64,000 nt of DNA from Tildeniella nuda ZEHNDER 1965/U140 (GTDB lineage: Bacteria; Cyanobacteriota; Cyanobacteriia; Leptolyngbyales; Leptolyngbyaceae): the NCBI GenBank assembly GCA_019358895.1, contig JAHHIG010000014.1:1-64000 (forward strand), read 5' to 3'. Numbering within the stretch: position 1 is the stretch's first letter; each line of letters starts with the position of its first letter. Below are positions 30,177 through 33,459 of the stretch, in pieces. The notes under the pieces were generated by a model. The model searched no databases. It was given only the letters and a program-made list of their open reading frames with translations, and was not told where the DNA came from. Made by a program: the position numbers and the translations under genes.

Positions 30177-30252
30177 ATAATGGTTTTCAAATGGAGGGAA
30201 ATGCCGCTAATGCGGCGAGGGAGGGAAATCCTCAAATTTGGGAGTTTATGAA

Positions 30253-30897
30253 ATGGCAATGACCACAAAACCTCGCACCCCCAACGGCACTCGCAATGGT
30301 GCCACCTCCAAAACGGCTAAACCTAACGGTACAGCCTCAGCCACTAAAGCCAAAGCACCAACGGTTGATGGACCCCCGGAAACTAACGCATCAGCACTGC
30401 TCAAAGAATTGCGGAACTTGGTGTTCAAGGAGTACGGCGTGAAGCTGCAACTCCGGGATGCTCGTGTCTCTACCAAAATTGGGCATGCGACTCGCGAAAA
30501 GCTTGGGCTTGACATTGCCGCTCAGGTGAAGAAGAAGGGTGGTAACAAAAAGTTCGACTGGCAGCGATGGAATACGAAGGTGTTCCCGCGACTATTCGGA
30601 CAACCCGATGCGCTGAAGTACGCGCCAGAAGTGGTGGCGATCCTTATGAGCCTGCTGTATGACACCGTTCGTACTGATCCAGAGCAAGCTGTTGCAGACC
30701 TGGTGGAATTCAACCGGGCATCGCTGGAGCGCCGCAACTCTTTCCAAGCGGAGCAGGATGATGACTTGGATGATGAACTGGATGACGATCTCGATGATGA
30801 CTTGGATGATGAACTGGACGATGAAGCCAGTGATGAACTGGACGATGACTTGGATGACGAGTTAGATGAGGATCTAGACGAAGAAGAAGACGAATAA
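30253..30897 (+). CDS. acidic-tailed plasmid protein
   Basis: 214 residues from ATG 30253 (MAMTTKPRTPNGTRNG). A basic, Thr/Ala/Lys-rich head of about 45 residues leads into a helical core (ALLKELRNLVFKEYGVKLQL, KKFDWQRWNTKVFPRLFG). It ends in some 50 residues made almost only of Asp, Glu and Leu in DDxLDDE repeats. The core shares the FDW..(W/H)N...F pattern with the 144-residue protein at 31105, so these are paralogs. The basic head and acidic tail suggest a nucleic-acid-associated protein or DNA mimic; function unknown. A terminator follows at 30931-30966. The serine-rich opposite-strand frame here is a shadow of the tail. Confidence 0.65.
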   Translation: MAMTTKPRTPNGTRNGATSKTAKPNGTASATKAKAPTVDGPPETNASALLKELRNLVFKEYGVKLQLRDARVSTKIGHATREKLGLDIAAQVKKKGGNKKFDWQRWNTKVFPRLFGQPDALKYAPEVVAILMSLLYDTVRTDPEQAVADLVEFNRASLERRNSFQAEQDDDLDDELDDDLDDDLDDELDDEASDELDDDLDDELDEDLDEEEDE

Positions 30898-31104: not shown

Positions 31105-31539
31105 ATGGTTACTGCAACTGCAACACGCAAAGCTACAAAAAACACTGCACACAAGGTACCGAAGCACACACCTGCTTTACAACGGGTAATTCCCTATCAG
31201 GAGAAAGTTCGACTGATGGTGATTGAAGTGCTAAGGGAAGAGTCTGGACGAGAGCTGGCAGCATCTGCTCGTTTCACCGGACAGGAGTTCGATTGGGAAC
31301 AGCACAATGCCCAGTTCCGTAAAGACTATGCCGAAACGTTACTCCGGGATCTGTTGACTTATGCTCGCAAGCTCTACGGATTGCAAAATCTGGATGAAGT
31401 GCGCGATCGCCGTGCTGCCCACAAAGCTACTCGCACGGGACGCTTGAATGCGCTCAACGGCTTGAGTACAACGGATGACTTGGATACGGATGAAGAGTTT
31501 GAAGTTGATCTGGAAGAAGACATCAACCTGGATGACTAA
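31105..31539 (+). CDS. acidic-tailed plasmid protein, shorter paralog
   Basis: 144 residues from ATG 31105 (MVTATATRKATKNTAHKV), with AAAGGAGC upstream. A basic head, a helical core (YQEKVRLMVIEVLREESGRE, GQEFDWEQHNAQFRKDYAE) and a shorter acidic tail (TDEEFEVDLEEDINLDD) repeat the design of the 30253 protein. The gap between them contains a terminator, so it probably has its own promoter in 30967-31104. Function unknown. Confidence 0.65.
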   Translation: MVTATATRKATKNTAHKVPKHTPALQRVIPYQEKVRLMVIEVLREESGRELAASARFTGQEFDWEQHNAQFRKDYAETLLRDLLTYARKLYGLQNLDEVRDRRAAHKATRTGRLNALNGLSTTDDLDTDEEFEVDLEEDINLDD

Positions 31540-31621: not shown

Positions 31622-31658
31622 ATGGGGTTTAACCATTGTCCAAGATCGCTTGGACAAT
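31622..31658. repeat. left palindrome and terminal-repeat-like end of the DUF1016 cassette
   Basis: A perfect palindrome, ATTGTCCAAG and CTTGGACAAT around ATCG, lies at 31635-31658. Together with the preceding ATGGGGTTTAACC (31622-31634), the outer 23 nt match the reverse complement of the right end (32910-32888) at 18 of 23 positions. Confidence 0.7.
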
Positions 31659-31677
31659 TAATTTATTCCTAAAAATT

Positions 31678-32757
31678 TTATTCGCTCACATCTGTAGGAT
31701 CTGCGATGCTTGCACCGCGCTTCGCGTTCGCCTCTGCTGCCAGAGCATTTAGCTCCACCTCTAGCTGCTCAATACTGGGCAAACTTCTCTGTAATGGTTC
31801 TGGTAACGTGTCCTTCAGTCGGTAGGTTGCCACTCCCACCGGGTGTTGGATGTACCGCAATGCATATTCCACCGTTGCCTTATTTTTAGACTTGCACAAG
31901 ACAATCCCAATCGTTGGATGATCCATCTCACTCCGCAACAAATCATCCACAGCAGCAATATAGAAGCTCATCTTGCCTGAAAATTCAGGTTCAAACTCAA
32001 CCATCTTCAGGTCAATCACCACATAGCAGTGTAGTTTGACGTGGTAGAAAAGCAGGTCGAGTTTATACTCCTTGCCGCCGACCTCAAGCGAATACTGGCT
32101 ACCCAGGAAGGAAAAGCCCACACCCAGTTCCAGCAAAAAATCTCGAATTCGATCCACCAGTGCCCGTTCAAAATCTCGCTCTTGAGCGGCTTCTGCCAGT
32201 TCCAGAAACTCAAAATTGTAGGGACTTTTCAGGATCTGGCGGGCTAGGTCTGACTGGCTTTGAGGTAGCGTATGGTCAAAATTATTAACGGCATTCCCCA
32301 CTCGCTGATGCAAACCGCTTTCAATCTGATGCACTAGGGCACTGCGGCTCCAGCCATGTTCGATCGTCTTCTGGGCATACCACAGTCGTTCCTCATTGCC
32401 TTTGAGCTTATCCAGCAGCGCAATGTTGTGATACCAGGTAATTTGGCCCATGACTGCTTGAATTACCGTTTCATCCGGAAAGGCTTGGGCAAAGGCTCTC
32501 ATATAGAGCAGATTAGAGCGGGAGAAGCCCTTAATCTCTGGAAAAGCGTGTTTTAGGTCTTTAGATAGGCGTTCAATGACTTTGGCTCCCCACCCTTCCT
32601 GCTGCTGCTTGGCAAGAATAGCACGCCCAATCCTCCAGTACAGAGTCACGAGTTCCCGGTTGACTGCGGTCGCTGCCCGCAGTTGAGCACTCTGAATCCA
32701 TGCTTTGAGGTCATCCAGAAAGCGATCATAGCTATCTGACGACAGGTTGCTTGCCAT
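31678..32757 (-). CDS. DUF1016/YhcG-family PD-(D/E)XK nuclease
   Basis: 359 residues from ATG 32757 (MASNLSSDSYDRFLDDLKAW). A longer open frame to 32910 would read through the right palindrome and is unlikely. The N-half has the DUF1016 helical domain: VNRELVTLYWRIGRAILAKQ, WGAKVIERLSKDLKHAFPE, SRSNLLYMRAF and WYHNIALLDKL. The C-half has a nuclease core: SQYSLEVGGKEYKLDLLFYH (D of the LDLLFY motif), then VVIDLKMVEFEPEFSGKM (DLK) and TIGIVLCKSKNKATVEYAL. YhcG-type proteins are predicted nucleases, often near restriction or mobile genes. This gene stands alone between matching palindromes, 117 nt from the right one and 19 nt from the left one. Confidence 0.85.
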   Translation of the reverse strand: MASNLSSDSYDRFLDDLKAWIQSAQLRAATAVNRELVTLYWRIGRAILAKQQQEGWGAKVIERLSKDLKHAFPEIKGFSRSNLLYMRAFAQAFPDETVIQAVMGQITWYHNIALLDKLKGNEERLWYAQKTIEHGWSRSALVHQIESGLHQRVGNAVNNFDHTLPQSQSDLARQILKSPYNFEFLELAEAAQERDFERALVDRIRDFLLELGVGFSFLGSQYSLEVGGKEYKLDLLFYHVKLHCYVVIDLKMVEFEPEFSGKMSFYIAAVDDLLRSEMDHPTIGIVLCKSKNKATVEYALRYIQHPVGVATYRLKDTLPEPLQRSLPSIEQLEVELNALAAEANAKRGASIADPTDVSE

Positions 32758-32873
32758 TCCTTTCACAAACCAGTACAGGGAGTCTAATCCAGACCTTACT
32801 ATACCGTGCGATTGGGTGAATTGCTTGTTTAGAGAAAGGGGATGAAAAATGATAGGGGAGCATTCAGCTCTTA

Positions 32874-32910
32874 ATTGTCCAAGCGCTCTTGGACGATTGG
32901 CAAAACCCAT
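32874..32910. repeat. right palindrome and terminal-repeat-like end of the DUF1016 cassette
   Basis: ATTGTCCAAG and CTTGGACGAT around CGCT at 32874-32897 differ from the left palindrome by one arm base and the 4-nt loop. The outer sequence ATTGGCAAAACCCAT (to 32910), reverse-complemented, resembles the left outer flank. No clear target duplication was seen beyond the ends. Confidence 0.68.
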
Positions 32911-32925
32911 CCATAGTACCAGAAA

Positions 32926-33459
32926 TTAACTAGCAGGGGCGGGTTCACAGCCAACACCACCGAAAGTTGGAACACTTGAATTTGAGAGCTTTCCAGTGAC
33001 CAATTCATGAACTTGCTGATTTGAAAGTTGTGTGGGTTTTACCTCGATCGTGGTTTTTCCACCCCGGTTAACCTGGATAATCGTGTCTGCCCAGTAAAAT
33101 TGTTCTTGTGAAGGTTGCGAGTATGCTGGGTAGCAGCCTTTTGAGGCGATCGCAACTTTATGCTGTACAGCGGACACGGATGGCAGAGCCACTCCAGCCC
33201 GAACCAGCCTCGCTTCTCCTACTGGACCCCAAAGCTGAAGTTGAGTCGTGATGCAGCGTTTTCCATCCTTTAGTGGTGCAATAATGTTACCGCATACCTC
33301 AACATCCACGTTATAAAGCGGTGGATATTCTGGAATGGAAGGATTTTGCGCTTGAGTGGCTTCATTTCCGCCTCTTGTTGCGCGAGGAGTGCAACCAACG
33401 GCAAGCAGCCCCGCCAAAGTCACGACTGTCCAGTATTGAGTAGTTTTACAAGTCCACAT
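32926..33459 (-). CDS. lipoprotein
   Basis: 177 residues. The N-terminus MWTCKTTQYWTVVTLAGLLAVGCTPRA has a lipobox LAVGC, so lipid attachment at Cys23 and membrane anchoring are expected. The mature part has a low-complexity linker and then a beta-rich domain with cysteines (VEVCGNIIAPLKDGKRC, KGCYPAYSQ, GVGCEPAPAS). It is the last gene of the minus-strand run starting with the actin-like gene at 36645, 32 nt after the preceding stop. Specific role unknown; a surface or envelope role is inferred from the lipobox. Confidence 0.7.
   Translation of the reverse strand: MWTCKTTQYWTVVTLAGLLAVGCTPRATRGGNEATQAQNPSIPEYPPLYNVDVEVCGNIIAPLKDGKRCITTQLQLWGPVGEARLVRAGVALPSVSAVQHKVAIASKGCYPAYSQPSQEQFYWADTIIQVNRGGKTTIEVKPTQLSNQQVHELVTGKLSNSSVPTFGGVGCEPAPAS

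Follow-up and report, generated by a model that had tools for sequence, protein, structure and literature searches.

Most sampled nucleases of the DUF1016/YhcG family carry, inside or beside their own genes, a palindrome that changes together with single residues of the encoded protein. Computation establishes the palindrome, its nature as DNA and its coupling to those residues. Our reading is that DUF1016 proteins would be sequence-specific nucleases that read and cut the palindromes of their own genes, making the segments flanked by such palindromes movable in a homing-like manner, and we give this reading as a whole a probability of about 0.6. It draws on about 30 joint specificity switches of protein and site among 148 genes, and on rearrangements bounded by palindromes, namely flips of a cassette of the type described below and the limits of an island in Escherichia coli K-12.

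A nuclease gene bracketed by rare palindromes

The window analyzed here, a stretch of 64,000 nucleotides, holds on the reverse strand at 31678-32757 a DUF1016/YhcG nuclease gene of 359 amino acids, the single DUF1016 gene found in the 6.08-Mb genome. The protein belongs to the family with 156.9 bits against PF17761 and 213.2 bits against PF06250 (curated cut-offs 32.8 and 32.5). Its DUF1016_N domain is encoded at 32302-32709 and modelled as a ParB/Noc-like palindrome reader, and its YhcG_C PD-(D/E)XK nuclease domain, with E193, D234, D249 and K251 present, at 31777-32238. The open reading frame extends up to 32910, and the start consistent with homologues is the ATG at 32757, which places the right palindrome 116 bp 5′ of the start codon and the left one 19 bp past the stop codon. 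The left palindrome (31635-31658) is perfect and reads ATTGTCCAAG-ATCG-CTTGGACAAT, with the core TTGTCCAAG-ATCG-CTTGGACAA; the right one (32874-32897) reads ATTGTCCAAG-CGCT-CTTGGACGAT, with the core TTGTCCAAG-CGCT-CTTGGACGA, and has one arm mismatch. A first-pass annotation of this DNA had described these 24-nt palindromes on both sides of the gene, inverted outer ends of the cassette with 18 of 23 matches over 23 nt, and the DUF1016 nuclease as the only long gene in between, and our analysis confirms all three. Read by eye from the forward strand, the inner ends of the cassette, CTTGGACAATTAA at 31649-31661 and TTAATTGTCCAAG at 32871-32883, form a perfect 13-nt inverted repeat.

The unit lies between two backbone genes with no Pfam match, one on the left (31105-31539, forward strand) and one on the right (32926-33459, reverse strand), the latter serving as the marker for finding the same locus elsewhere. 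Among four neighbouring proteins no methyltransferase was found, the only Pfam match being DUF6753 in one of them. The gene at 30238-30897 encodes a backbone protein with an acidic C-terminal tail of DDLDDEL repeats, and its position corresponds to that of a Nostoc-plasmid gene annotated as a primosomal protein.

At up to two mismatches, the window 24-mer occurs in the 6.08-Mb genome only at the two bracketing places, a rarity which indicates that the cassette palindromes are not due to chance. Across 42 genomes of the order, the window pattern occurs at 10 places in 7 genomes, and 9 of these are within or beside a DUF1016 copy; the tenth (genome G005, 2 mismatches) has no DUF1016 on its contig among the matches listed. 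Both searches agree with the earlier view that the palindromes are tied to the nuclease gene and are not dispersed repeats. The many dispersed copies typical of REP/RAYT sequences were not seen at this mismatch limit, and a dispersed-repeat or RAYT reading is ruled out by the two copies per 6.08 Mb together with the motif scan of the 42 genomes. The first-pass annotation had also invoked a mechanism of the IS200/IS605 type. In such an element, or a RAYT-like one, the palindromes would be ends recognized by a transposase acting in trans, and they do lie at the ends of the cassette. However, only two such palindromes exist in the genome, and their type fits residues of the enclosed nuclease. In addition, no transposase was found within the unit by open reading frames and Pfam, in a scan that left overlapping frames of 65-68 amino acids outside, and the Y1 HUH transposase of IS200/IS605 elements is not found either, the nuclease being the only long frame between the palindromes. 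We therefore abandon that mechanism as exceedingly improbable.

An internal palindrome across the DUF1016 family

The DUF1016 family is present in many phyla and is listed by PADLOC as the candidate defence system PDC-S02; no NCBIfam match was found for it. Within the order, DUF1016 matches occur in 36 of the 42 genomes, often several per genome and many of them partial. Many copies contain a palindrome some 290 nt downstream of the beginning of the coding sequence, directly preceding the conserved IxW108 codons. Such an internal palindrome (score of at least 6.4, at most about 90 nt upstream of the conserved codon, mostly 19-39 nt) was found in 80 of 88 homologues, which comprise 80 from genome contigs of many phyla, archaea included, 7 from plasmid or phage records and E. 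coli K-12 yhcG; the 80 contig loci are the best 80 of at least 578 and thus no random sample. As background, a score of 6 is reached by 51 of 3,287 other 42-nt windows of such genes. Scoring was extended to 173 distinct genes, out of 185, that have W108 and sufficient upstream sequence, and here 120 reach at least 7 in the 42 nt before W108, compared to 15 of 3,287 other in-frame windows. When synonymous codons were shuffled, the mean score was 3.5 compared to the observed 8.6; 88% of genes had p≤0.05 and 68% had p≤0.01. These shuffles, together with the wobble-base coupling described below, lead us to reject the idea that the palindrome merely follows from the protein motif EFVQQ..AQIP.

The window gene has a decayed internal site at 32443-32465 (reverse strand), before IxW108, where most homologues have the palindrome. 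Neither it nor the same gene in six other genomes (G035, G002, G298, G371, G366 and G303) contains an internal palindrome. At all seven loci flanking palindromes with the core GTCCAAG-N4-CTTGGAC are present, two at each except in G035, which has only the left one because its contig ends. The first-pass annotation had held that homologues without flanking palindromes would speak against its cassette. Most homologues examined indeed have none that match, but most carry a palindrome inside the coding sequence. Judging from these comparisons, the bracketing palindromes of the window are a displaced form of a family feature.

Two further observations concern the same genes. Cyanobacterial DUF1016 copies are broken near residue 180-189 at G030:C75:2696-6145, where about 2.4 kb separate the halves, and at G021:C84/C96, G023:C10/C213, G040:C249 and G011:C279; the domain border is perhaps an insertion hot spot. 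Other long palindromes, centred on AACGTT, lie within about 2.3 kb of a DUF1016 gene at seven loci (L019, L023, L030, L032, L036, L055 and L071; AATAGCCTGACGGGAAACGTTTCCCGTCAGGCTATT at L055) and are perhaps another palindrome family.

Covariation of the arms

Of 179 distinct sites, 159 share one common register with at least 6 of 9 pairs, and 148 of these belong to genes with intact aligned proteins. Shifting one arm by 1-3 bases lowers pairing at k3-k9 from 96.4% in the 148 genes, a value raised by the retention of genes with at least 6 of 9 pairs, to 18-35%. When changes are counted on the nuclease-domain tree, both arms switch together in 18 of 42 cases at k2, 20 of 25 at k3, 24 of 35 at k4, 11 of 11 at k5, 2 of 8 at k6, 30 of 32 at k7, 7 of 10 at k8, 10 of 19 at k9, 2 of 31 at k10 and 0 of 8 at k11. 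By these counts, k3-k5 and k7-k8 covary strongly and k2 and k9 moderately, and the outer end shows no covariation. Mismatches over k2-k10 in the 159 sites comprise 17 G-T and 31 A-C. Because the arms change together and show no overall G-U excess, we read the constraint as one on DNA. On this lack of excess we also reject an RNA hairpin, with local exceptions at k4 (10 G-T against 3 A-C), at k13 (12 against 0) and at the central k1, which is G-T or T-G in about 79-80 of the 159 sites. At L258:6410, L258:7611, L260:3982 and L260:5182, perfect arms of 12-14 nt reach past the core with outer sequences that differ between sites, and the symmetry itself thus seems to be kept or restored.

Under a broader alternative, the protein would not read the palindrome, which would be maintained as a DNA or RNA hairpin by selection for folding or by fold-back copying. 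In its favour, joint changes of the two arms are usual, symmetry extends beyond the core although the sequences differ (four non-coding sites have perfect arms of 12-14 nt and some genes have arms of 15-18 nt), and mismatches lean towards G-T at k4, k13 and k1. A hairpin would nevertheless have no reason to follow residue 81 or 109 of the protein, as shown below, and over k2-k10 G-U is not in excess (17 against 31). We consider this alternative very unlikely.

Predicted structure of the reader and nuclease domains

An excerpt of Kosinski 2005 describes the N-terminal ~200 amino acids as mainly helical, with no confident matches (PMC1189080). Our sequence search gave no solved homologue (best E 1.2). 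The N-terminal domain was modelled with a pLDDT of 93.6 and a pTM of 0.82. In a structural search with this model, the top 12 entries were all ParB, Noc or Spo0J (Z 9.5-7.4, over 93-102 residues at an rmsd of 2.5-3.8), followed by an entry at Z 5.3; the tool cautions that helical models commonly give Z values below about 13. Foldseek likewise placed the ParB/Noc family in its first 17 rows, but with E of 0.34-1.7. By sequence, no Pfam ParB domain was above cut-off, nor was one among the 19 Pfam families listed for 43 members. Nor was an N-terminal ParB CTPase domain found, DUF1016_N and YhcG_C alone being above cut-off. As modelled, the fold of the DUF1016 N-domain resembles the helix-turn-helix DNA-binding domain of ParB/Noc.

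In the model, a further helix and a short turn precede each of the helices 80-92 and 138-146, with residues 80, 81, 84, 138 and 139 at the starts of these two, and the position of the palindrome in the gene encodes the linker between these two helix units. The window gene encodes the first putative recognition helix (GFS-R80-S81-N-L-L84) at 32482-32520 and the second (GWS-R138-S139) at 32320-32346, both on the reverse strand. Published work on ParB/Noc assigns specificity to the residue that follows G-K-S, which is R173 or Q173 (PMC7383237), and an alignment by motif places DUF1016 residues G77-F78-S79-80-81 opposite G170-K171-S172-R173 of ParB. In the C-terminal part, where model confidence is mixed, residues 184-312 match PD-(D/E)XK structures with Z up to 9.5. 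Consistent with this nuclease fold, E193, D234, D/E249 and K251 are present in 167-168 of 168 proteins.

Coupling of residues to bases

When palindrome positions were compared with protein columns by mutual information, residues 92-109 being excluded, sharp peaks appeared at k7 (residues 81, 80 and 84), k4 (112) and k2 (139), while k9 and k3 were more diffuse. All 93 genes with Arg at residue 81 have G:C at k7, and of the 55 genes with Thr, Ser, Ala, Lys, Gln or Asn there, 51 have C:G. At residue 109, picked later among four columns, Tyr accompanies G:C at k3 in 25 of 25 genes and other residues almost always C:G. Looser links join residue 84 to k9, 112 to k4 and 138/139 to k2. In the left arm, k7 coincides with the wobble position of the codon at W-9, occupied by G in all 93 genes with R81 and by C in 51 of the 55 without it. 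Where this codon is Val, it is GTG in 67 of 67 genes with R81 and GTC in 41 of 42 with other residues. This coupling at a synonymous position is not explained by protein structure alone. On the nuclease-domain tree the residue-81 state changes 31 times, the k7 pair 31 times and their combination 32 times.

Tables made from 76 cyanobacterial genes and applied to 72 others called k7 correctly in 61 of 61 (majority guess 49; 11 unseen left out) and k3 in 68 of 71 (majority guess 53; 1 unseen). Weaker results were obtained for k4 (55 of 70; guess 48; 2 unseen) and k2 (46 of 63; guess 43; 9 unseen), and at k9 the 62 of 70 compares with a majority guess of 64 (2 unseen); since the residue positions were chosen on the pooled genes, the transfer is not blind. 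Two palindrome positions, k7 and k3, look firmly read, and the others less so. E. coli YhcG has Lys at the position of residue 81 and sites with either k7 base (CCAGAC and GCAGAC), which indicates that the code is not universal and does not carry over unchanged.

In the window, L84, R80 S81, I112 and Y109 fit G:C at k9, C:G at k7, A:T at k4 and G:C at k3, as found in the flanking palindromes; the gene was outside the training genes, though its flanking sequence was known in advance to the analyst. Together with the family consensus, these residues give the half-site TTGTCCAAG, which is present on 3 of the 4 flanking arms, the fourth being TCGTCCAAG, and on both arms in only 2 of 148 internal sites. 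Two features run counter to this fit. The flanking sites have a spacer of 4 nt compared to 5 in standard internal sites, and the A:T expected at k2 is missing. From the coupling as a whole, DUF1016 proteins very probably recognize their own palindromes.

Rearrangements bounded by palindromes

The locus (REARRANGEMENTS) lies on a backbone common to plasmids of Nostoc, Anabaena and others; 13 records with the right-flank gene define this comparison, and 9 of them are typed conjugative. The first-pass annotation had suggested a switchable unit, and the cassette does occur in both orientations, with the reverse one of the window also in G035, G002 and G298 and the inverted one between palindromes in G371 and G366 (86% identical). 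The flanks of G371 are collinear with the window on both sides, apart from about 750 extra bases on the left. In G303 the same gene stands forward between palindromes, with about 1 kb from palindrome to right flank. The 4-nt centre of the left palindrome (window 31645-31648; same place L092, L261) is ATCG in G000 and G035 and CGAT in G002 and G298, the spacer being inverted between identical arms.

A different DUF1016 gene, forward and with a protein about 64% identical, occupies the site in G001, G009 and G038. There the left palindrome of the window type is intact and followed by GATTG(G/A)C, and in the window GATTGGC comes after the right palindrome. From the placement of these bases, about a dozen, we infer that the window cassette may have been inserted into that palindrome. 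Three Nostoc/Anabaena plasmids among the 13 records have neither gene nor palindrome at the site, and contigs G013:C91 and G002:C121 appear to end short of it. The comparison of sites with and without the unit that had been proposed earlier thus yielded inverted and exchanged forms, but no clean empty site, and no target duplication was found for the window cassette.

In E. coli, a yhcG probe matches 3,784 of 5,426 complete genomes. Strain K-12 has three tandem palindromes inside yhcG, one after the yhcG stop and another after gltD, and the last two bracket the gltF-yhcG island (L146 633-657 and 8971-8995). The three tandem copies, 39 bp apart at L146 8130-8240, lie in a stretch encoding extra linker residues, as if the palindrome site had multiplied inside the gene. 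In strain R14, which is free of the island, gltD and nanQ are separated by one palindrome whose outer flanks are the same, and a 161-nt query for this empty site was at least 80% covered in 943 of the 5,426 genomes, the palindrome itself being outside the count. The left palindrome is missing from strain 2016C-3878, which has yhcG alone, and strain MINF_1A, with a DUF1016 remnant, has no palindrome of the YhcG type.

Discussion

Our results suggest a model in which DUF1016 proteins, probably as dimers, would join a ParB/Noc-like palindrome reader to a PD-(D/E)XK domain. The recognition palindrome would be kept at the protein's own gene, in most sampled members inside the coding stretch for the linker between the two putative DNA-reading helices, and in the window lineage the internal site would have decayed, with palindromes on both flanks instead. 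The protein would bind its palindrome and then cut at or near it. Segments flanked by palindromes, such as the 1.2-kb window cassette and the E. coli gltF-yhcG island, may in this way be cut out, inverted or exchanged, or inserted at a palindrome, much as in homing. We put cutting at the palindrome, and movement of the bracketed segments by that cutting, at even odds. A self-cutting gene should be selected against, and our model has no protection or regulation step.

Regulation without cutting is the main rival. Here the protein would repress its own gene through the palindrome, as a roadblock or operator, the nuclease would act elsewhere, for example on phage or plasmid DNA, and the rearrangements would be ordinary recombination. 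All of the coupling data show recognition and not cutting, PADLOC lists the family as a candidate defence system, and ordinary recombination between inverted repeats could produce the orientation switch. In addition, the looser motif TTGTCCA..TGGACAA occurs at 32 places in the 42 genomes, of which 19, assigned by hand, are at DUF1016 loci, and the remaining 13 are comparable with the 17 matches of a reversed control pattern. Extra sites of a gene's own type, several of them just past the stop codon, occur in 13 of 148 loci (7 with at most one mismatch), compared to 0.65 in a shuffled-arm control that scanned one arm pair where the observed scan covered up to two. However, an operator lying some 290 nt within the reading frame, and at the same place in most family members, would be unusual, and the cassette flips and the E. 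coli K-12 island boundaries coincide with palindromes. We judge regulation alone unlikely and favour recognition followed by cutting.

The DUF1016 system matches no family tested. Bacillus subtilis parS is located in the spo0J gene. ParB/Noc proteins with their parS/NBS sites share with DUF1016 the fold predicted for residues ~32-152, a palindromic site and specificity at the start of the recognition helix, as far as an excerpt of the ParB/Noc work describes it (PMC7383237). Unlike ParB/Noc, which has no nuclease, DUF1016 has no CTPase domain that was found and is fused to a PD-(D/E)XK nuclease, and its site lies inside most sampled genes with a sequence that changes with the protein. Homing endonucleases, of which I-Ssp6803I is of the PD-(D/E)XK type, resemble DUF1016 in having a nuclease gene with a patchy distribution and presence or absence at one site. 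Their target is interrupted in the gene-bearing allele, whereas the DUF1016 allele keeps its palindromes intact, inside (80 of 88) or on both sides, if these are the targets. Type II restriction endonucleases share the PD-(D/E)XK fold and recognition of palindromes, which for DUF1016 we infer, but no methyltransferase is adjacent among the four scanned neighbours of the window gene, and the DUF1016 site is long (~22-27 nt) and rare in the genome. IS200/IS605 and RAYT elements need a transposase. Rickettsia palindromic elements, in an excerpted description, are ~100-150 nt long and inserted in intergenic regions, RNAs and coding genes, and thus also place palindromic DNA within open reading frames (PMC4316617); the DUF1016 site, in contrast, is short, confined to one position of one gene family and coupled to the protein. 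PADLOC PDC-S02 covers the same protein family, in a listing without a self site or mechanism.

The open literature searched, seen in part as excerpts and with subscription journals outside the search, describes no palindrome, code or ParB-like fold for DUF1016/YhcG, and no target or function of the family. DUF1016 is an almost unstudied nuclease family. We tentatively propose, at somewhat less than even odds, that it represents a new kind of selfish or self-marking nuclease system, in which one gene would encode reader and nuclease and carry the reader's palindrome, the specificities of protein and site would switch together, and cassettes or islands would be moved by cutting. Each gene appears to name its own target, so that specificity may be read from sequence, and the family provides a large natural collection in which each protein comes with its matching site. 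It might also supply nucleases that have long sites and switchable specificity, and it exemplifies a coding stretch shaped by having to serve as a DNA site for its own product. If our reading is true, DUF1016 genes would hold a natural, self-labelled protein-DNA recognition code.
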